Origin: a virus
Length of the DNA: 64,000 nucleotides
Virus record (IMG/VR): IMGVR_UViG_3300042518_001860
Location: 1 to 64,000 of that record
Direction: 5' to 3' (one strand)
Every line of letters begins with the position of its first letter. The first letter of the stretch is position 1. Below, piece by piece: positions 10,693-28,822 of this stretch. Made by a program: the position numbers and the translations under genes. Under the pieces are notes generated by a model that saw nothing but the letters and a program-made list of their open reading frames with translations, did not search any database and was not told the origin of the DNA.

Positions 10693-11084
10693 ACCTGGAC
10701 GAAATCAAGGCGCGGGCCGCTGCGGCGACGTCGGGGCCGTGGGGCGTGTCGACGTGGGAAGATCGAGAGGATGGTGGATTTTGCGCGGCCGGGCCACATC
10801 ACATATACGAGGACGCCGACGACCCGGATGAAGCGGCGTATGACGCGGCGCAGGTGGACGCTGTGTTCATCGCTAATGCCCGCACCGACATCCCCGCGCT
10901 CGTCGCGGAGGTCGAGCGGCTGCGGGCGCGGCGGGCAGAGGTCTGCGAGTGCGTCGGGGTCACCATGGGGTACCAGCAGGGTATGACCGTTGTCGCGTGG
11001 TTCCTCGACTACAGCGTATCGGCAAGGGTCGAGTGCCCTCGCTGCCACGGCTCCGGCGCGGTCATCGTGGAGGGCGACGCATGA
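10689..11084 (+). CDS. Ead/Ea22-like phage protein with zinc knuckle, 131 aa
   Basis: N-terminal LDEIKARAAAATSGPWG and FIANARTDIPALVAEVERLR are hallmarks of the Ead/Ea22-like accessory proteins common in phage early regions; their function is not known. The C-terminus carries CPRCHGSGAV, a CxxCxGxG zinc knuckle as in DnaJ, with a further Cys pair at CECVG. The ATG overlaps the previous stop. Confidence 0.72.
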   Translation: MNLDEIKARAAAATSGPWGVSTWEDREDGGFCAAGPHHIYEDADDPDEAAYDAAQVDAVFIANARTDIPALVAEVERLRARRAEVCECVGVTMGYQQGMTVVAWFLDYSVSARVECPRCHGSGAVIVEGDA

Positions 11085-16954: not shown

Positions 16955-17517
16955 CCTGCTCTGACGAAAACACACACATCATGCTTGACCTCGAGACGCT
17001 CTCGACCGCCCCAGATGCGGCCATCGTGAGCATTGGGGCACAGGTCTTCTACCCAGTGGCGGGTGGGCTTGGGGCCGCATTCTACGCTTGCATCCAACCT
17101 GAAGGGTGGAAGGGGCACATCGACCCCAAGACTGTCGCTTGGTGGCTCCAGCAAAGCGACCGTGCCCGCTGTGAAGTAGTTTCAGGGACCATGCAGACTC
17201 TCGAACACGCACTCCTCGATTTCAGCGCTTGGGTTCTGCGGACCTCCTACAACGGTAGTACTTCCAATCCAGTGTACATTTGGGCCAACAGCCCAGCATT
17301 TGACTGTGTAATCCTCCGCTCTGCATACCACAGAGTCGGACTCAAAGAGCCATGGTCCTTCCGCAACGAGCGGTGCTACCGCACAATCAGGGCCCTGAAC
17401 CCAAGGGTTCAAGGCCCCAGTGACACTGGTTGCGCCCACAACGCGCTGGATGATGCCAAGTGGCAAGCCGCGCATCTGCTTCGCCTCATGGGGCACGAGG
17501 ATAGCCATGCAGGTTGA
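16951..17517 (+). CDS. DEDDh 3'-5' exonuclease (Rv2179c/DexA-like), 188 aa
   Basis: Motif I: IMLDLETLS (residues 10-18, catalytic Asp and Glu). Motif II: NSPAFDCVILRSAY (Asp). Motif III: HNALDDAKWQAAHL, the HxAxxD of DEDDh enzymes. The two-metal active site looks complete. The family degrades RNA or DNA from the 3' end; related phage enzymes such as T4 DexA degrade single-stranded DNA. TTG start overlapping the previous stop, with GGAGA upstream; an in-frame ATG at 16981 has no ribosome site. It lies just before ThyX, consistent with nucleic-acid turnover. Confidence 0.8.
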   Translation: MTCSDENTHIMLDLETLSTAPDAAIVSIGAQVFYPVAGGLGAAFYACIQPEGWKGHIDPKTVAWWLQQSDRARCEVVSGTMQTLEHALLDFSAWVLRTSYNGSTSNPVYIWANSPAFDCVILRSAYHRVGLKEPWSFRNERCYRTIRALNPRVQGPSDTGCAHNALDDAKWQAAHLLRLMGHEDSHAG

Positions 17518-18298
17518 CCCCAGAAATTCCCTGTCAGAAGACCTCATCTTCGCGCCCAAAGTTACGCTTGTGGCTGCTTCCCAAGTCGTAAACTGGCCCG
17601 ACTTTGCGCATGGCGAAGGCCAGGGTCAGGGAAGGTTCCCTGAGCGTCTTGTGGAACTTGCGGGGCGTGAGTGCTACGACTCCTGGGGGAGAGGTCGCAA
17701 ATCCCCTGAGTACCATGCCCACATTGCTGAAGCGCTCCACGGGAGTGTCCTCGAGCATGCGAACTTCACATTCAGAATCTCTGGGGTCTCGCGCTACCTG
17801 ACGCACGAACTCATTCGACATCGTGCTGGTTGTGCTGTGTCCCAGCGGTCCACTCGTTACGTCGATGAAGGCCGCGCATGTGTGGTTGTCCCGCCCGCCC
17901 TGATCATTACCGAGACAGATTCGGCAGAGAGGGCTCAGGAAAAGAGAGCAAGGCAGGCAGATCTTCTGACCTTCACTAAGCAAGGTCTGGCTATCTACCG
18001 GCAACTCTCTGTTAGCGCCTCTACTACAGCGCGAAAGACTATGCGCGGCGCAGCCCGGGCCTTTCTTCCAAGTCAGCTTGAAACCAGCCTGATTTGGACG
18101 GCCAACGCTCGTGCGCTCTTGAACGTCATCGAGCAGCGGTTCTCGGATGCGGCTGATGCGGAGATCTGCCGCCTGACTGGGCTCCTACTGACCGAAATGG
18201 CGGTCGAGATGCCGAGCTACTTTGGCGGAGCTCGCCGACAACTGCGCTCGGATGGTCTTGGCGACTGCCTTGTTCCAGGAACCTTGAGGGCCTTCTGA
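17507..18298 (+). CDS. thyX: Flavin-dependent thymidylate synthase
   Basis: 263 aa. The ThyX signature is RHRAGCAVSQRSTRY (about residues 112-126), followed by LPSQLETSLIWTANARALLNVIEQR, a typical substrate-binding region. The spacing after RHR is one residue longer than the textbook RHRx7S. It methylates dUMP to dTMP using methylene-tetrahydrofolate, NADPH and FAD, which leaves tetrahydrofolate. The ATG at 17507 overlaps the end of the exonuclease gene. Together with the thymidine kinase at 23334 it gives two routes to dTMP. Confidence 0.92.
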   Translation: MQVDPRNSLSEDLIFAPKVTLVAASQVVNWPDFAHGEGQGQGRFPERLVELAGRECYDSWGRGRKSPEYHAHIAEALHGSVLEHANFTFRISGVSRYLTHELIRHRAGCAVSQRSTRYVDEGRACVVVPPALIITETDSAERAQEKRARQADLLTFTKQGLAIYRQLSVSASTTARKTMRGAARAFLPSQLETSLIWTANARALLNVIEQRFSDAADAEICRLTGLLLTEMAVEMPSYFGGARRQLRSDGLGDCLVPGTLRAF

Positions 18299-19568: not shown

Positions 19569-19852
19569 CCGTCTTCTTTCTCCCGGGCTGCCCTGCGTGC
19601 GATGCGAATTCAGAGAAGTCGACTCTGGCCACTGAAGAGATCCACGCTCGACTCCACGAACTGATTGCCCTCGACCACAAAGAGCGAGCCACTCCGAGCG
19701 TTTTGGATCTCCTCAATCGACTGGACCGCCGACTCGATACAGTTGTTCGAGTGCTTGAAGAGATTGACGGGGCGGATGAGGCTGAGTTTCTTGTCTCAGA
19801 GGCTCTCGACGATCTCGAAGCCCTTTATGCTGCGCTGGAGTACGAACGATGA
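19565..19852 (+). CDS. Hypothetical helical protein with thioredoxin-like CPAC start, 95 aa
   Basis: A GTG directly behind a perfect AAGGAGG. It opens MTVFFLPGCPACDANSEK, like the first strand and CxxC of a glutaredoxin, but then only helices follow (IHARLHELIALDHKE; LNRLDRRLDTVVRVLEEI) with no cis-Pro or later strands. The redox motif may therefore be a truncated relic or a metal site. Stop overlaps the next ATG. Confidence 0.6.
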   Translation: MTVFFLPGCPACDANSEKSTLATEEIHARLHELIALDHKERATPSVLDLLNRLDRRLDTVVRVLEEIDGADEAEFLVSEALDDLEALYAALEYER

Positions 19853-20925
19853 AACTCTCCCGCTACACCAGGTTTCTTGTCTCTGAGGATTATGACCTCG
19901 GCGGTTTGGCAGGTTCGGAGTGGCGAGAGATTCCCGCGGACCTGACCAGCAGCGCCGGGTTCGTCCCATACGAGGCTGGGGGCGACCTTATCGTGGACCT
20001 TGACATTTCGGTCTACCTCCTGCAGTTCAGGCTGGATGAGATTGAGCTTCATGCCCCGACGCTCAAGACACGCATCAAGGAGCGTGAGCAGGCTTTGTGC
20101 CGAGAGGCAGGTGTCCCCAAACTCAGCCGTTATGAGCGTGCTGAGCTCGCTGAGGTGGTTAGGGCGGAGATGATTGCCAATACGCCGCCTCGAACCACAC
20201 TCGTCCCCATCCTCTTGGATTCGGACTCGCGAACGTTGCTGATTGCAACGACCAGCAAGAAGCTGGTCGACCTTGTCGCATTGGCGTTCGAGACCGCGAC
20301 TCAAGCAAAACTCACGCCTACGAGCCCGCTCCTTCGAGCTCGAGCTCGGGACCTCGACTGGTTGAAGTTCCACTACACAGACATCTTGCGCGACGAGTCG
20401 GGGGTGAGTCTTCAGAGCCAAGTACCAGATGACTATCTCGGCCGTCTGGATCTCGCGAGGAAGTTTGGTCCTGACTTCTTGCTCTACCTGCTCCACCGGG
20501 AACGCGAAGGCGGGTCAGATATTGCCTTTTCTTTCGGCGACTGCCTGAAGTTCAAGCCCTCGCAAGACCCGTTGGCGCTGGTTTCTTCAGCGATGAAGGG
20601 TGAAGAAGTGGCTTCGTCAGCCGTAGCTCATCAGGCAATCCTGCGGGGTTGCCCTATTGCTGAGGCGAAGCTCAACTTCAACCTTGCTGGTACCCTGATT
20701 CCCTTCTCATTGGCAGCCGACACGCTTGCAGTGCTTGGAGCGAAACTCCCTGTCAGCTTGGCTGAGGATGAGTATGAGGCTATCCTTGAGGACTCCCTCT
20801 ATGTTGAACGTCTCGAGAGCGCTATTGACGAGGCCTTTGTGTCCTTCCTGGACTTGTGGGTTGGTGAGCAAGGCCCACCTCTGCGCGAAGCGATGCGTGG
20901 TACCATCTTGAACGCGGAGGTCTGA
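19849..20925 (+). CDS. RdgC-like recombination-associated protein, 358 aa
   Basis: The central region follows the RdgC order: a strand-rich N-terminal part with GFVPYEAGGDLIVDLD, then a long helix TRIKEREQALCREAGVPKLS, RYERAELAEVVRAEM, then LVPILLDSDSRTLLIATTSK, like the helix and strands of RdgC (E. coli, 303 aa). RdgC is a ring-shaped DNA-binding protein that restrains RecA-mediated exchange. Homology is by pattern, not by strict motif, and the C-terminal third is more divergent. Next to nuclease and nucleotide genes, a DNA-maintenance role fits. Confidence 0.6.
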   Translation: MKLSRYTRFLVSEDYDLGGLAGSEWREIPADLTSSAGFVPYEAGGDLIVDLDISVYLLQFRLDEIELHAPTLKTRIKEREQALCREAGVPKLSRYERAELAEVVRAEMIANTPPRTTLVPILLDSDSRTLLIATTSKKLVDLVALAFETATQAKLTPTSPLLRARARDLDWLKFHYTDILRDESGVSLQSQVPDDYLGRLDLARKFGPDFLLYLLHREREGGSDIAFSFGDCLKFKPSQDPLALVSSAMKGEEVASSAVAHQAILRGCPIAEAKLNFNLAGTLIPFSLAADTLAVLGAKLPVSLAEDEYEAILEDSLYVERLESAIDEAFVSFLDLWVGEQGPPLREAMRGTILNAEV

Positions 20926-21131
20926 TGTCACGCCCTAAAATCGACGTTTCACGCGATGGTAAGTGTACGGACTGTGGGAACCCCAACTTGGAGGTCACCT
21001 TCTCGAGTGGTGGGGGTATGTGCCGTCGCTGTGTGGCCTACTACCGCAGCGACTCTTTGGATCGTGAGAACGTCGATTTAGGGGTCCTGACCAAACCTTC
21101 CAGGCGGTGGAAAAGGAACCGTGACAAATGA
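20925..21131 (+). CDS. Small zinc-finger protein, 68 aa
   Basis: The ATG shares its A with the previous stop. GKCTDCGNPNL and GMCRRCVAYY give two CxxC pairs 19 residues apart, a treble-clef-type zinc site. Basic C-terminus (SRRWKRNRDK). Probably binds nucleic acid or protein. Stop overlaps the lysis gene start. Confidence 0.7.
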   Translation: MSRPKIDVSRDGKCTDCGNPNLEVTFSSGGGMCRRCVAYYRSDSLDRENVDLGVLTKPSRRWKRNRDK

Positions 21132-21587: not shown

Positions 21588-21962
21588 ATGGACTCGATCA
21601 ACGACCAAGCCCGCATCCTGCTCGAGTTGAAGGAGATTCTGTCCCGACTCGAGAATTTGCAGCGCAGTAGTGATAAAACTACCGCCGCCATCAATGGACT
21701 CGACCTCGAGACCCGTCTTCAAGAAGTTCTACGGGAATTCGGCCGTCAGGCCGACCGAACCCTTCAGCACATCGAGACTATCGAAAAGGGTCGGGCTGTA
21801 GAACGGGAGATGCGTGTCAGCATCGCCAGCAAGGTGGCGGCAGAACTCTGGCAGAAGGGCGGCCAGTATATTGTGTTGGGCGCCTCTCTTCTACTTGTTG
21901 GTGCAGTTGCCAAATATCTTGGTCTGCCTGTACCCTTCTTCGGTCAGATCGGGGGACCATAA
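21588..21962 (+). CDS. Coiled-coil protein with C-terminal membrane helix, 124 aa
   Basis: The first 85 residues are coiled coil (LLELKEILSRLENLQRSSDK; RLQEVLREFGRQADRTLQHI). Residues about 95-115 form one membrane helix (YIVLGASLLLVGAVAKYLGL). No ribosome site is seen; the ATG lies at the predicted transcript start. Topology resembles hemolysin-XhlA-like or holin-type proteins, and it follows the cell-wall hydrolase. It also directly precedes a response regulator (TAATG overlap) and kinase, so it may instead belong to that signalling unit. Confidence 0.7.
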   Translation: MDSINDQARILLELKEILSRLENLQRSSDKTTAAINGLDLETRLQEVLREFGRQADRTLQHIETIEKGRAVEREMRVSIASKVAAELWQKGGQYIVLGASLLLVGAVAKYLGLPVPFFGQIGGP

Positions 21963-22396
21963 TGCAGCCCAGCCGTGTCCTCCTTGTTGAGGATGATGAA
22001 GACGACGCCTTCCTCAGCAAGCGCTCACTGAAGAAGGCTATGGATGCTCGCGGTATCACATACGATCTCGAGCATGTCCGGAATGGGAAGGCGGCCCTGG
22101 ACCGCCTTTTTCAAGGTGAGGTCCTGAGAGCGCCAAACTTCGACCTTGTCCTTCTCGACTTGATGATGCCCATCATGGATGGGAAGGAGACGCTCGAGGC
22201 TATTCGACAACATCCGCAGGGGTACAAGATCCCTGTGGTTGTTCTGACTACCAGTGACAACCATCGAGAGATCGACTTGGTCTGGGGGCATGGAGTCTCG
22301 GCCTACATCCTTAAGCCTGTAACTGCGGCCGACTACGCCTCGATCATGGACTCCACTGGAACTTTGTTCCTCCGGCACAACCGCTCCGTACGTTGA
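21962..22396 (+). CDS. Response regulator receiver protein (Rcp1/CheY-like), 144 aa
   Basis: A single receiver domain with no output domain. LLVEDDEDDAF gives the acidic pocket (Glu10, Asp11, Asp12); Asp66 in VLLDLMMPIMDG is the phosphoacceptor; Thr96/Thr97 and Lys118 in AYILKPV complete the site. The long insert after helix 2 (HVRNGKAALDRLFQGEVL) and LTTSDNHREIDL resemble Rcp1-type regulators paired with phytochrome-class kinases. The ATG overlaps the preceding stop, and the kinase gene overlaps its end, so the pair is co-translated. It would act by protein contact, not DNA binding. Confidence 0.93.
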   Translation: MQPSRVLLVEDDEDDAFLSKRSLKKAMDARGITYDLEHVRNGKAALDRLFQGEVLRAPNFDLVLLDLMMPIMDGKETLEAIRQHPQGYKIPVVVLTTSDNHREIDLVWGHGVSAYILKPVTAADYASIMDSTGTLFLRHNRSVR

Positions 22397-23322
22397 ATCC
22401 TGTCTATCTGGTTGTCCGCCCCTGGAACGCGCTCTCCGTCTTGGCGGCAGCAGCCACCTCCATCGCTTTGCTCACCGAAGCCCAGGTGAAGGAGATCATC
22501 CTCCTAACCATTATGTGGGCGGCCACTATGTTGACTGCTGTTCTAGAACACCGTAGGGCAGCACTCCGAACGCGGGAGGCCCTGACTCAGAGCCTGACGC
22601 TGCAGAAGCGCAATGAGGACCTTCAGCGAGCAAATTCGGCCCTCGAGCGATTTACCTCCGTGGCAGCACACCAAATGCGCTCCCCTCCCCGCACGATCAA
22701 GGGCCTGGCTATGACTGCTCTGGAGGAGTATGGGGACCGGCTACCAGTGGAAGCGCGGGACCTCCTCGAGAGCATCATGCGGCGCGCAGACAATTTGCTC
22801 GAGGTGATCACAGTGCTGCACGAAATGGGCATGCGCCATTCGGCGTCGATCACGCTCCGCCCGTTGGAAGTCGCAAAGATGATCCCCTCTGCGAGGGGAC
22901 GTGTGGGAGCTCAATGGCGAGGTGAGATTGACTGCAGTGAGCTTCCCCCGTGGCTCGAGGTGGTGGGTAACGACATCCTTTTTGTGGAGGTGCTGGCCAA
23001 CCTCATCGAGAACGGGTGGAAGTTCAACGAGAGTCCTGTACCAACCGTGAGATTCTCCGGTTGCGTTGAGAACGGATTCTGTCGACTCCGAATCGCAGAC
23101 AACGGGATTGGGTTGTCGCCCAGTACAACTGGGCTATTTCAGCTTTTCCGCCGACACACCGACCGCTTCCCTGGGACAGGGGTAGGCCTTGCTCTCGTCC
23201 ATCAGGCGGTTGAGAAGATGGGTGGAAAGATCTCGGTGGTCAATCCCAGACAAGGGGAAGGGGCGGCCTTCGAAATCGAGCTTCTTGCCCCCAAAAGTTC
23301 CGGGAAACGCGACGTCTTCTGA
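22393..23322 (+). CDS. Membrane histidine kinase, 309 aa
   Basis: TTG start overlapping the regulator gene. Two hydrophobic segments (about 12-28 and 33-51) anchor it, followed by a coiled coil (RANSALERF). The phospho-acceptor His93 is in SVAAHQMRSPPR. The ATPase domain has an N-box (LANLIENGWKF, Asn203/Asn207), G1 DNGIGL (236-241) and G2 GTGVGLAL (261-268), all intact. No sensor domain beyond the short membrane hairpin is seen. Kinase plus regulator form a full two-component pair, very unusual in a phage. It could sense host envelope state or rewire host signalling (inference). Confidence 0.92.
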   Translation: MNPVYLVVRPWNALSVLAAAATSIALLTEAQVKEIILLTIMWAATMLTAVLEHRRAALRTREALTQSLTLQKRNEDLQRANSALERFTSVAAHQMRSPPRTIKGLAMTALEEYGDRLPVEARDLLESIMRRADNLLEVITVLHEMGMRHSASITLRPLEVAKMIPSARGRVGAQWRGEIDCSELPPWLEVVGNDILFVEVLANLIENGWKFNESPVPTVRFSGCVENGFCRLRIADNGIGLSPSTTGLFQLFRRHTDRFPGTGVGLALVHQAVEKMGGKISVVNPRQGEGAAFEIELLAPKSSGKRDVF

Positions 23323-23333
23323 GGAGGTGCTTC

Positions 23334-23885
23334 TTGGGTCGAATCCACGGGTACTGCGGGCCGATGTTCAGTGGGAAGTCCACACTGCTCATTGACCAAC
23401 TCCGCCGCGCCGAGATCGCCGGCAAGCGGGTGATCTGCTTCAAAGCCAGTCTTGATAATCGGTATGCTGCTGACCAGGTCTGCACGCATACCCGGCAAAC
23501 TATGGAGGCGAGGCCGACTCCCCCCACGACAATCGGGGCTGCTGCAATCGGCCGGCTCTCGAGGGGCTACGACGTCGTTGGCGTGGATGAGGTGCAGTTC
23601 TTCCCAACAACAATTGTTGACGAGTTCCTCGAGCTCCGCGCGATGGGTAAGGTCGTCCTGTGGGCCGGGCTTGATATGGACTTTCTTGGGCTCCCGTTTG
23701 GGCCAGTTCCAACGCTGATGGCGGTGGGCGGGGTATCGAAATTGTTCGCGGTCTGCCACTCTTGCGGTGATATGCAGGCCACGCACACCTATCGCGTTGA
23801 CAAGTCACGAAGCGAGCAGGTCCTCGTCGCTGGGCTGGATGGTTACCAAGCACGTTGTTATGCTTGCTGGGCGAAAAACTCTTGA
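23334..23885 (+). CDS. tdk: Thymidine kinase (type II)
   Basis: 183 aa, usual length. P-loop GPMFSGKST (residues 9-17), VDEVQFF (about 83-89), GLDMDFLGLPFG (about 112-123), and zinc Cys pairs CHSC and CYAC. It phosphorylates thymidine to dTMP with ATP. The TTG start follows AGGAGGTG at good spacing. It complements ThyX and suggests the phage salvages thymidine from degraded DNA. Confidence 0.94.
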   Translation: MGRIHGYCGPMFSGKSTLLIDQLRRAEIAGKRVICFKASLDNRYAADQVCTHTRQTMEARPTPPTTIGAAAIGRLSRGYDVVGVDEVQFFPTTIVDEFLELRAMGKVVLWAGLDMDFLGLPFGPVPTLMAVGGVSKLFAVCHSCGDMQATHTYRVDKSRSEQVLVAGLDGYQARCYACWAKNS

Positions 23886-24430: not shown

Positions 24431-24715
24431 ATGCAGCAGATCACACACCTCTTCCTCCAATTCATCGCAGAGAACCCTGACCTCCCGACTTCGCGGTTTG
24501 AGGGTCTCTACAACCACGCCAATCCGCGTAATGGGCAGCCTCACCTCGAGGACAAAGCCCGTGTCTGGGCAAGGTGCCAGCTCTGCCGAATGCGACTGCA
24601 GGGACTCGTTGAGTCAGTACCCGCGGAACGCCCGGCAGAGTACCAGCGTCGTGTGGGTCCCTACAGGGTCTGGCGACTGACTGAAGTTGGACGTCGTACG
24701 CTCGAGAGCGTATGA
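24431..24715 (+). CDS. Small protein with CxxC pair, possible winged helix, 94 aa
   Basis: The ATG has no ribosome site, and a weak AACCAT box lies six bases upstream, so it may be leaderless as well. Contains HLFLQFIAENPDLPTSRFEG, CQLCRMR, and ends YRVWRLTEVGRRTLESV, like the last helix of a winged helix-turn-helix. A role in packaging or DNA binding is possible since terminase genes follow. Confidence 0.55.
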   Translation: MQQITHLFLQFIAENPDLPTSRFEGLYNHANPRNGQPHLEDKARVWARCQLCRMRLQGLVESVPAERPAEYQRRVGPYRVWRLTEVGRRTLESV

Positions 24716-25209
24716 ACATCAAGACGCCGCCCGTCCCGGTTCGAGTCCTGCCGACGACCGTAGCGTCTGGGCCTCGCTCGGAGTTGGACGAGATCATTCA
24801 GGCCAGACGGACGCGCGCTAAGCCGTCCAACCTCGATGACTACGCCTGGTCACTAGCTGAGGAGATGCGGCGTAACGGTGGGCTGTTCGACTTGTCCGTT
24901 CAGATTGCTCGGCTCGAATCCCACTATGCCGAGATTGAGCGGCTTGTTGAGCAGAACGACATCCTTCGATCTACGGCTCTTACTCTTCAAATCCGCCTGA
25001 CCACCCAGATTGCTGACCTGAAGGCCAAGGCTGTGGATGTCGCAGCCAAAACCCGCACCATCATCACACTTGATGGGATGCAGGTCGTCATGCAGGCCCT
25101 TTTGGCCTCACTGCAGACGCATATCCATGATCCGCATCTACTCGAGAAGATCGGTCGTGATGTGACAGATGCAGTCCGCGCTGCCCTGGCTTCCGTGAGG
25201 CAGAAGTGA
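24712..25209 (+). CDS. Coiled-coil protein, candidate terminase small subunit, 165 aa
   Basis: It lies directly upstream of the large terminase gene with ATGA and GTGA overlaps, the usual place of the small subunit. The sequence is mostly helical: DYAWSLAEEMRRNGGLFDLS, IARLESHYAEIERLVEQND, then IADLKAKAVDVAAKTRTI. A clear DNA-binding helix-turn-helix is not visible, so the call rests on position and oligomer-type helices. Confidence 0.5.
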   Translation: MNIKTPPVPVRVLPTTVASGPRSELDEIIQARRTRAKPSNLDDYAWSLAEEMRRNGGLFDLSVQIARLESHYAEIERLVEQNDILRSTALTLQIRLTTQIADLKAKAVDVAAKTRTIITLDGMQVVMQALLASLQTHIHDPHLLEKIGRDVTDAVRAALASVRQK

Positions 25210-27287
25210 AATCACCTGGGCACGTTGCAGGTCTCGTAGGCGAGTTCCGCGTCAAAGAAGCCACAAAGCGAGTCGTCGAGGATGAATTTGACGAACTCCT
25301 CACGGGCTTCGAGCGCGCTCTCCAGACCACAGGTGGAACAGAGCTCGAGGCGCCCCTCCTCTCCCCTGAAGAGTGGATCGAGAACCCCTACTACGCAGGC
25401 CCCTTCGCCGGGTCATTTCTTTGGCCTGAAAAGAAGCGCGTGTTCTGCAAGGCAGCGCGCGGTGACAATATCGTCAACGTGTTTACTGGCGCCATCGGTA
25501 CTGGCAAGACGCAGTTGATTGTGCTGATTGCCCTGTACGACCTGTACCGGATGTGCAACTTCGTCTCCCCCCACGCTTTCTTGGGCTTTCCAGCCACGTC
25601 TGAACTCGTCACGGTTCTAATCCACCAGAACCAGACGAAGGCCAAGGACAAGATCCTTGACCCGTTGCGAGCAGCAGTGGACCTCACGCCATACTTCAAG
25701 CGGGAGTGTCCCCGAGACAAGCGACTTGAGAGCAGCATCTTCTTCCCCAGGAAGAACGTAAAGGCGCGCGTGGGTGTCACTGGGGAGGCCGCTATCCATG
25801 GTGAAGACGTCTTCGCGCTACACTGCTCAGAAGCGAACTTCTATTCCGTTGTGGCCGACTCCGTCCGCAAGCGAGGTGGCGAGGTTCTCGACGTAGCACA
25901 GGACCTGCATGACAGTATGCTGGTCCGATGGGAGTCACGTTTCCTGCGTGGTGGGAAGCTCCAGCTCTGCCGTATGAGCCTGGACTCCTCCCGCCAATAC
26001 CCTGACGACTTTGTCGAACGGGTGGAGAAGCGCATCCTGCGGGGTGACTACCCCTACCCAGCGCAGGTCTTCTCCATGTCTCAATGGGACGCCAAGCGAG
26101 GCGTCCTCGACAACATGGGCAAGCCCCTCTACTCTGGGCGCGTCTTCCCCGTTGAAGTGGCTACAGGCAACCGCGTCAGTCGCATCTTGGATGCCGATGA
26201 AGTCGAACACGCCATCGGGCAGGTCGTCTGGTGTGCTGAGGAGCATCGAGCCTCTTTCGAGGGAGATATTGACAAGGCTCTTCGGGACCTGGCCGGTGTT
26301 GCTGTCCAGGGCTTGCACCCACTAATCCCACAGCGCGAGGCCATCTCGGCGTGTTTCCGCCTCGAGCCTGCCTTCCAACAGCACCAAGTCATGCACCCCT
26401 TCACCGCCACGACCACTACGTTGCGGGACAGCGTGGCGATGATCCTGGACTTCTTGTGCGACAGCAAGACTCGCCAACCGCGAGTTAACCCCGACAAACT
26501 TCGCACCGTGCATGTTGATCCAGCGTTCACCAGCGACGCCCTTGGCTTGTGCATGGCGCATGTTGACGAAGTCGTCACGGTCAATCGCATGACCGAAGGG
26601 CAACTCGATATTCCCTGTCTTGTCTGCTGTATAGGGGATAACCCTACCCCAGGCGTTGTACGTTGTCCGCGCTGTGTAGGTTCTGGTCTCCGGAAGCATT
26701 ACGGTAGGACCGTGGCCTGCGTTGAGTGTCGTGGGGCTAAGGTTATCAAGTGCCCCTCGTGTAAGGGGTCCATGAAGCACGGTACTCCGACTCAGCGTCC
26801 CCGCGTCTATGCGGACCTGACACTTCAGGTCACGCCCCCGAAGTCGGGGCGCATTCAATTTGACGACGTGGAGGCCCTTCTCGCTCGACTCCGTGCCGGA
26901 GGTTTCCGCATTGCGGTGGTCACGGCTGACGGTCATCAGTCAGAGCAATTCCTGCAGCGGCAACTGAATGAGACGGGCGTCTATATCGCAGAGAAACTTT
27001 CCATGGACACGTCCAAGGACCCCTACTACGCGCTCCGCGACTCGATCCTTGACTTGGACTCTGAGGGGCGTCGGCGGTTGAGTCTCTATGACTACCCGCC
27101 CCTCTTCGATGAACTGTGTCGTGTCGAGGATCGTCGAGACAAAATTGACCACCCACGAAATGGGTCCAAGGATGTTGCTGATGCCTTAGCGGGTGTGGTG
27201 TACAATTGCGAGGTTCACGGCTTTCTGCGAGAGTCGGTCATCTCTGGAAACCTTCAAGTCAAGGGGTTCGACGGTAAGGTGCGATGA
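25206..27287 (+). CDS. terL: Terminase large subunit with an inserted DnaJ-type zinc-finger domain, 693 aa
   Basis: ATPase domain: Walker A GAIGTGKT (95-102), Walker B region DVFALHCSEANF (201-212, Glu209), coupling motif RMSLDSS (256-262). Nuclease domain: Asp438 in HVDPAF, Asp575 in VVTADGHQS and Asp656/Asp659 in KDVADALAG. Between the first and second nuclease acids, residues 471-522 carry four CxxC pairs (471/474, 487/490, 505/508, 516/519). The last three are each followed by x-G as in DnaJ CxxCxGxG repeats. This insert is not usual for terminases. The motor pumps DNA into the prohead and cuts it. GTG start overlapping the previous gene. Confidence 0.92.
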   Translation: MKSPGHVAGLVGEFRVKEATKRVVEDEFDELLTGFERALQTTGGTELEAPLLSPEEWIENPYYAGPFAGSFLWPEKKRVFCKAARGDNIVNVFTGAIGTGKTQLIVLIALYDLYRMCNFVSPHAFLGFPATSELVTVLIHQNQTKAKDKILDPLRAAVDLTPYFKRECPRDKRLESSIFFPRKNVKARVGVTGEAAIHGEDVFALHCSEANFYSVVADSVRKRGGEVLDVAQDLHDSMLVRWESRFLRGGKLQLCRMSLDSSRQYPDDFVERVEKRILRGDYPYPAQVFSMSQWDAKRGVLDNMGKPLYSGRVFPVEVATGNRVSRILDADEVEHAIGQVVWCAEEHRASFEGDIDKALRDLAGVAVQGLHPLIPQREAISACFRLEPAFQQHQVMHPFTATTTTLRDSVAMILDFLCDSKTRQPRVNPDKLRTVHVDPAFTSDALGLCMAHVDEVVTVNRMTEGQLDIPCLVCCIGDNPTPGVVRCPRCVGSGLRKHYGRTVACVECRGAKVIKCPSCKGSMKHGTPTQRPRVYADLTLQVTPPKSGRIQFDDVEALLARLRAGGFRIAVVTADGHQSEQFLQRQLNETGVYIAEKLSMDTSKDPYYALRDSILDLDSEGRRRLSLYDYPPLFDELCRVEDRRDKIDHPRNGSKDVADALAGVVYNCEVHGFLRESVISGNLQVKGFDGKVR

Positions 27288-28822
27288 AGATCTACACTCC
27301 CCACGCCCAGCGCTTCATCGTCAAAGCGCTCGAGCGGCATACTCCTGGGCAGGGGCGTGCTGATAGCCCCGACCTCCTCTCCCCTCTCTTCGGTCGCTAC
27401 GTTCGCCCCCGCTTCGAACCTGTGGAGTGGCAGGAACACCTTGAGCGGAGTACGCGCCTGAAGTCGGCTCTGGAGGAGATTGCGCTGGCTTCCGTCGGCC
27501 TGGGCGTGCGCGGTGTCCCCGACCCGCTCGAGCTGGAGGCTTTAGGCGAGCGGGAGGCCCCGACGCTTCGGAAGAAGTTGTTGGACGCCGCGCGCAAGAT
27601 CACCATGTTCTGCCAGTCGCCAAAGCGTGGCAGTTTCTTGCCCCTCTCCTGGGAGCTCTACAAAGCCGAGGTGGATTACCTCTCGACTGGCAATGGTTGC
27701 CTTGAGGTCATCGAGGAGAACTATGAGGCTGGTGGGCCTGTCGTTGGCCTGAGTCACGTCCGTTCGAGCTACATGCGGATTGCCCCAGATCGTAGTCACT
27801 GGGTCCAAGGCACCCAGTACGCAGTCTACCGCACCGAGCGCGAAGGTGAGTCCATCCCGGTCTCGGTGACCAGCAACTACTACCGCACCTTCGGCGATGA
27901 TGCTCCCGAGCGGCGCTTCATCAACCGCAAGACGGGAGAGTTCTACCGGGAATGGCCGAGCAACCTGGACCCTGGTTTGAAGGGCTCCGCCATCATGCAC
28001 GGGGCCTCCTACAACCCCCTCGACCCGTACTATGGGATGCCGGTCCACGTCCCCGCGCTGTACGCCATCATGGAAAACGAGATGATGGCGCAGTTCATGG
28101 TGGCTTTCCTCAAGAGTGGTACCCAGGTACCCATCCTGATTGTAGTTGAAGGCGGCAATCTCACCGCGGACTCTCAAGAGAAGATCGAGGCCCTCTTCAA
28201 CAGCGATACAAAGGGCTTGGACTCGAGCGGTCGCGCTGCAGTTATTCAGCCTACGATTCATGGCCTTCTCGGGCAGGGGGCCAAGATTCGTGTGGAGCGC
28301 GTCGAATTGGGCATCAAAGACCTGGCCCCACTCTTTGAGCGTAAGGCGACCAACGACGGCGAGATCATCGAGACTACGGGCATGTCCGGTGTTTTCATCG
28401 GTGGTGGTGAGGGTGCCCAAGCCACGACGCGAAACGCTGCTGTGTTGAAACAGTTGTCGTTTGAGCATGCCATCGAGCCCCGCGCCAAATTCTGGGAGTC
28501 CATGCTGAACAATGGCGTGGCGGGGAGGATTTCTCTGGGCGGGTACTTCCACTGTCAACGTCCGAAGAACATGGACCCCCTCCAGGTGGCGAGCCTCCTT
28601 CAGAAAATGAAGGATGGTCTCACCATCGAGGATATGCGACAGGCTGTCCGCTCTTTGGTCAATGGCGTGGACATGCCCACGCTGAAGCTCGACAAGTACG
28701 GTAAGATGCCTATGGGCATTCTTCAGGAGAAATTGAAGGCCGATCTGGCACAAGAATCCGTGCCCGCCCCGGGTCCAGCGGCCTCGGACATGGAAAAAGT
28801 GATGTCTCTGCGGGTCGTGTAA
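27284..28822 (+). CDS. Portal protein, 512 aa
   Basis: Length and order (between terminase and protease) match a portal. Recognisable features are GSFLPLSWELYKAEVDYLSTGNG, then GYFRE-like SNYYRTFGDDAPERRF, LDPYYGMPVHVPALYAIMENE and FVIGGGEG-like GVFIGGGEGAQATTRN, characteristic of PBSX-type portals. It forms the dodecameric ring at one capsid vertex through which DNA passes. The C-terminus is Ala/Pro-rich. ATG overlapping the terminase stop. Confidence 0.88.
   Translation: MKIYTPHAQRFIVKALERHTPGQGRADSPDLLSPLFGRYVRPRFEPVEWQEHLERSTRLKSALEEIALASVGLGVRGVPDPLELEALGEREAPTLRKKLLDAARKITMFCQSPKRGSFLPLSWELYKAEVDYLSTGNGCLEVIEENYEAGGPVVGLSHVRSSYMRIAPDRSHWVQGTQYAVYRTEREGESIPVSVTSNYYRTFGDDAPERRFINRKTGEFYREWPSNLDPGLKGSAIMHGASYNPLDPYYGMPVHVPALYAIMENEMMAQFMVAFLKSGTQVPILIVVEGGNLTADSQEKIEALFNSDTKGLDSSGRAAVIQPTIHGLLGQGAKIRVERVELGIKDLAPLFERKATNDGEIIETTGMSGVFIGGGEGAQATTRNAAVLKQLSFEHAIEPRAKFWESMLNNGVAGRISLGGYFHCQRPKNMDPLQVASLLQKMKDGLTIEDMRQAVRSLVNGVDMPTLKLDKYGKMPMGILQEKLKADLAQESVPAPGPAASDMEKVMSLRVV

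Follow-up and report, generated by a model that had tools for sequence, protein, structure and literature searches.

A BSD2/DnaJ-type cysteine-rich insertion in the nuclease domain of a phage large terminase

The nuclease domain of a phage large terminase (TerL) contains a lineage-specific insertion of about 55–60 residues that carries the eight cysteines of a DnaJ/BSD2-type domain. The gene lies in the first 64 kb (the window) of a 96.7-kb IMG/VR virus record. Fold and motif agree in pointing to a BSD2/DnaJ-type cysteine-rich domain that is not a member of a curated family. TerL is conserved among phages, and the orientation and docking of its nuclease domain during packaging remain under debate. 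By its defined position in this domain, a natural module would mark a surface that is free for partner contact; here, a zinc module of the DnaJ/BSD2 type that lacks a J domain is placed within a viral motor enzyme. Because sister TerLs possess only a short turn at this site, the insert should be cleanly removable or swappable.

The TerL gene (25206..27287, + strand) starts with GTG, encodes 693 aa and was assigned on the basis of a 61-sequence alignment, an AlphaFold2 model and Foldseek. Its product is a tailed-phage large terminase consisting of an ATPase part and an RNase-H-fold nuclease, with predicted packaging activity. The ATPase part contains the Walker A motif GAIGTGKT at residues 95–102, of which K101 is invariant in the 61-sequence alignment. 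The first and second nuclease acids, Asp438 (26517..26519, +) and Asp575 (26928..26930, +), are invariant in the same 61 TerLs and also in an 11-sequence TerL alignment, while Asp656 and Asp659 of the third nuclease motif, SKDVADA (27171..27182, +, located by alignment), are almost invariant in the 61 sequences. The AlphaFold2 model of the full window TerL has a mean pLDDT of 84.6 and matches Sf6 gp2, T4 gp17 and the TerLs of HK97 and D6E in Foldseek (E down to 3e-12), which includes the comparison with T4 gp17 that an earlier note on this DNA had proposed. Sequence searches with the 693-aa protein yielded no TerL match in Pfam, weak matches only in PHROGs and, using phmmer with the whole protein, no match in the PDB. 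By tblastn, related terminases were detected in 237 phage records, with 25–33% identity among the matches listed.

The genes around TerL were compared with those of a relative, L003. A 165-aa coiled protein is encoded upstream (24712..25209, +) and is 41% identical to the product of the gene upstream of the L003 TerL; by its position, it is possibly the small terminase. The order of a coil-containing or hypothetical protein followed by TerL also exists in Vibrio and Rhizobium phages. The portal protein (27284..28822, +; PHROG 12, E=6e-18) is 46.5% identical to the L003 portal. Further genes upstream of the packaging genes encode a ThyX-type thymidylate synthase (17420-18298, +) and a thymidine kinase (23334-23885, +). 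The record also encodes an RdgC-like protein (19849-20925, +; E=4e-5, narrowly under the Pfam cut-off) and an apparent two-component pair, in which the gene of a response-regulator receiver protein (21962-22396, +; Pfam E=3e-16) overlaps by 4 bp that of a histidine kinase (22393-23322, +; HATPase_c E=2e-16, HisKA).

The inserted cysteine-rich domain with its linkers spans residues 462–526 (26589..26783, +), as defined by the alignments and the AlphaFold2 model, and sits where other TerLs of the family have a short hairpin turn. According to DSSP on the model, it is borne by nuclease strand beta2 (residues 446–461; 26541..26588, +) as the first arm and by strand beta3 (residues 527–542; 26784..26831, +) as the second arm of a ribbon. 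In the modelled RNase H fold, this ribbon consists of two long antiparallel strands, and the insert substitutes for its turn. The four CxxC pairs lie within residues 471–522, corresponding to 26616..26771, exactly where the earlier note had placed them, and its assignment of the insert to the interval between Asp438 and Asp575 agrees with the invariance of both residues in the two alignments. The pairs are C471/C474 (26616..26627, +), C487/C490 (26664..26675, +), C505/C508 (26718..26729, +) and C516/C519 (26751..26762, +), all of which are conserved in L003 and a further relative, L005. The DnaJ-like CxxCxGx spacing described previously applies to three of the four window pairs (CPRCVGSG, CVECRGAK and CPSCKGSM, pairs 2 to 4) and fails for the first, CLVCCIG. 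All four pairs of the L003 insert follow CxxCxG (CGECFG, CPRCLGTG, CASCRG and CPVCNGTG). The full CxGxG form occurs in one of four motifs in the window insert and in two of four in L003. The window insert has a net charge of +8 and the L003 and L005 inserts of +7 (pI 9.2–9.3), compared with -1 to -4 for whole TerL proteins and 0 for the BSD2 domain. Every insert also has a basic loop joining pair 2 to pair 3 (LRKHYGR, KRRVGR, KRKVGR).

Cysteine motifs also occur elsewhere in the window. A short open frame (10890-11081, +) contains CECVG and CPRCHGSG and gives a partial match to the DnaJ zinc domain of 13.7 bits, which may be due to chance. A 68-aa protein (20925-21131, +) with the pairs CTDC and CRRC, without a Pfam match, is probably a small zinc ribbon.

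The window insert alone scored under all Pfam cut-offs, with weak matches including the DnaJ central domain (13.0 bits, PF00684), BSD2 (14.6 bits, PF25436) and Anti-TRAP. The L003 insert reached 15.3 bits against PF00684 (cut-off 32.7), and relatives' inserts reached up to 24.1 bits against PF25436 (cut-off 27). These inserts scored best with Pfam BSD2_CRD (E=4e-5 and 1.1e-4, below cut-off), and the top PDB match to a profile of the three inserts was BSD2 (E=9e-4). The L003 insert was modelled with AlphaFold2 on an alignment of three sequences only; the core had a pLDDT of 79–87 and was predicted as one compact cysteine-rich unit, so that the structure prediction suggested earlier as a check does not speak against the earlier reading. 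Foldseek matched this model to the BSD2 structures 6ekc, 8ilb and 6ekb (E 9e-5 to 2e-4, TMt 0.60–0.73; for 6ekb TMt 0.73, rmsd 2.2, prob 1.00), followed by DnaJA2 (7zhs, E 1.5e-3) and then E. coli DnaJ (1exk, 0.07). Zinc modules of UvrA and lambda Q were among the weak matches. In the full-length model, the window insert forms short strands at residues 484–486, 495–498, 501–504 and 513–515 between beta2 and beta3, the same four-strand pattern as in the L003 insert model, at moderate confidence (block means of 54–76 pLDDT). Because the scores are below the Pfam cut-offs, we label the insert DnaJ/BSD2-type by fold and motif. The earlier designation as a DnaJ-type domain is thereby retained in its broad sense, with BSD2 and not DnaJ itself as the closest match.

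Members of the DnaJ/BSD2-type cysteine-rich domain family bind two zinc ions. By homology, the insert is predicted to bind two structural zinc ions, one through pairs 1 and 4 and one through pairs 2 and 3, and to fold independently. For the related J-domain-less protein ZnJ2, release of only one zinc per molecule was reported (PMC5818400).

Four other IMG/VR datasets supplied the closest relatives, L003, L004, L005 and L006, whose TerL is 56% identical to that of the window. In this lineage all eight cysteines and several structural glycines are retained, while identity to the window is 38–42% in the insert and 58–63% in the rest of TerL. When the residues of the window TerL were shuffled 20,000 times, four CxxC starting within a 50-residue span never occurred; the conservation of eight cysteines at such low insert identity is the stronger evidence that the insert is not a product of chance. 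A third lineage, L110, is represented by a contig ending just past the position of the last cysteine. It reads EGTGFHG, with the cysteine codon incomplete, as would be expected for the fourth CxGTG motif.

In the 11-sequence alignment, every relative other than L003 and L005 lacks most of residues 462–526. We surveyed one TerL family in depth, using 192 TerL rows spanning nuclease motifs I and II. The segment between these motifs measures 133–138 aa in the insert clade versus 65–100 aa in all others. Four CxxC pairs were confined to the clade (6 of 192 rows, not all of them distinct genes), and a single CxxC in this segment was present in three rows outside it. Both the earlier statement that terminases normally lack such a domain and the comparison of relatives proposed with it are borne out within this family: close relatives keep the cysteines and most glycines, and distant ones lack the entire insert. 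In a midpoint-rooted FastTree phylogeny of 162 TerLs, calculated with the insert columns left out, the insert clade has a support of 1.0 and is nested in a 9-tip group (0.976) together with six insert-free TerLs, which fits one gain on the long stem of the clade.

No insert was found in the cultured phages of INPHARED by tblastn, with the insert alone or with its flanks. The best cysteine match in that search was an unrelated 700-aa protein of a 636-kb huge phage (L095:2020-4122). Its N-terminal region appears metallopeptidase-like by eye and is followed by a long CxxCxGxG array, which matches the Pfam DnaJ central domain at E=5e-6, short of the cut-off. Prophage relatives were not found in bacterial genome contigs with two sets of short patterns, a search in which absence is not proof, and a plasmid search returned a single weak TerL-like match.

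The source records are metagenomic, and a chimeric contig or assembly artefact might in principle mimic an insertion. We regard this as almost certainly wrong and rule it out by the independent contigs bearing the insert: the same in-frame architecture is present in L002 and in L003–L006 from separate datasets, the cysteines are conserved, and dN (0.066) is below dS (0.894) between the L003 and L005 inserts. An intein or homing endonuclease was likewise rejected, as the insert is only about 60 aa long, cysteine-rich and located in a turn. Among other TerLs, the 1046-aa terminase of Rhodobacter phage RcTiptonus (L094:3583-6720) does carry a LAGLIDADG domain, probably an intein, and others of the TerL matches, some 2.8 kb in length (L199, L200, L264, L265), may resemble it.

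A stable zinc hairpin could also be tolerated passively in a permissive turn, with little function beyond local stability. The variable length of this turn across the family indicates that the site tolerates change, and the insert is diverging faster than the remaining TerL (dN of 0.73 versus 0.33–0.38 between the window and L003). We nevertheless consider passive insertion improbable. A useless cysteine-rich domain should decay, but eight cysteines and several structural glycines are held between lineages of 56% identity, and even the third lineage still terminates in an EGTG-like sequence.

Our preferred reading, held tentatively and at somewhat less than even confidence, is that the insert is a rigid, structural two-zinc docking finger located far from the active site. 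The ribbon would keep the module about 16 strand residues away from the active-site end with Asp438 and Asp444. As judged from the fold, the insert is unlikely to be catalytic, because the active-site acids are at the opposite end of the ribbon. Each TerL of the motor ring would thus expose a zinc-stabilised finger that might latch onto a folded partner in the manner of the J-domain-less BSD2 on RbcL, the most likely candidates being the portal, an adjacent TerL or the small terminase. Such latching could help the motor to assemble or to change over between cutting and pumping. Docking is favoured because J-domain-less DnaJ-type zinc proteins work in complex assembly or as holding factors (PMC5818400) and because the HK97 TerL nuclease domain has an additional element that was suggested to be a platform for partners (PMC9410871). 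In HK97, this domain was moreover speculated to face the portal (PMC9410871). Weighing against docking are the basicity of the insert, which suits DNA as well as protein, its fast evolution, which exceeds what is expected of a tightly constrained interface, the moderate confidence of the window insert model, the three-sequence basis of the isolated insert model and the single zinc released per ZnJ2 molecule.

A DNA-handling finger, whose basic surface and tip would take hold of DNA close to the nuclease, whether packaged or concatemeric, is a possible though less probable alternative; it might, with similar reservation, hold the end for cutting or help in recognizing the packaging site. This role ranks a close second because the insert, unlike BSD2, is basic in all its versions, including the pair 2–3 loop, and the weak structural matches to the UvrA and lambda Q zinc modules are consistent with it. 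By fold, however, the active-site loops and the insert are at opposite ends of the ribbon, the parts of G20c TerL that modelling placed close to DNA are loops L0–L3 and the auxiliary hairpin (PMC5389553), and some of the basic residues (CRGxK) are shared with the neutral BSD2 and may be structural. Binding of the portal or of DNA had been suggested before, and we infer that either is possible.

Binding of a chaperone had been suggested as well. As a DnaJ-like module, the insert might recruit host Hsp70 for folding or remodelling of the terminase or capsid, and the domain type is indeed common to DnaJ, with DnaJA2 and E. coli DnaJ among the Foldseek matches. Recruitment of Hsp70 requires a J domain, and a search for PF00226 gave no match in the 96.7-kb record while being positive in 12 of 14 control genomes. 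Recruitment via a J domain was therefore rejected, and ZnJ2, which lacks a J domain, does not work together with DnaK (PMC5818400), leaving the chaperone proposal without support and very unlikely.

A broader reading, less likely than not, is that this phage lineage recruited a chaperone-type zinc module into its packaging ATPase-nuclease as a built-in assembly or DNA-gripping finger, replacing a separate factor that docks TerL to the portal or DNA.

In comparison with known systems, the sister TerLs (L007, L035, L038, L042, L066, L180) and those of the Vibrio phages PG28 and V-YDF132 belong to the same family and share the ribbon, but have a short turn without CxxC pairs at the insert site. 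T4 gp17, Sf6 gp2, HK97 gp2 and D6E TerL share the ATPase and RNase-H-fold nuclease, the catalytic acids and the overall fold; a cysteine-rich domain is not described for them in the literature searched, and the extra element of HK97 TerL is a different one, alpha-alpha-beta (PMC9410871). Herpesvirus terminase complexes likewise contain zinc fingers (HSV-1 pUL28, HCMV pUL56). The solved ones are in the TerS-like subunit pUL28, one being shared with pUL33 (PMC9611059), and pUL89-ZF is putative only (PMC5972660). No DnaJ/BSD2 assignment of these fingers was found in the literature searched. Zinc fingers in terminases are thus already known from herpesviruses, and a DnaJ/BSD2-type insert in a phage TerL appears new: no earlier report was found in the literature on large terminase combined with zinc, zinc finger or DnaJ (subscription papers were outside reach), and no terminase was among the named proteins in the best 50 viral structure matches, several of which are nameless. 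The central domain of type I DnaJ/Hsp40 proteins (PF00684; 1exk, 7zhs) resembles the insert in motif type and in how its four CxxC pairs are ordered, whereas the insert has shorter spacings, scores below the PF00684 cut-off and is not accompanied by a detectable J domain in the record. Nearest in fold and sequence is the cysteine-rich domain of the Rubisco assembly chaperone BSD2 (PF25436; 6ekb, 6ekc, 8ilb), which likewise has four CxxC pairs and no J domain; its pairs are of the CxxCxG type, as are three of the four in the window insert. BSD2 exists as a protein of its own in the chloroplast and has a neutral surface, whereas the insert, below the Pfam cut-off, is basic and resides within a viral packaging enzyme.
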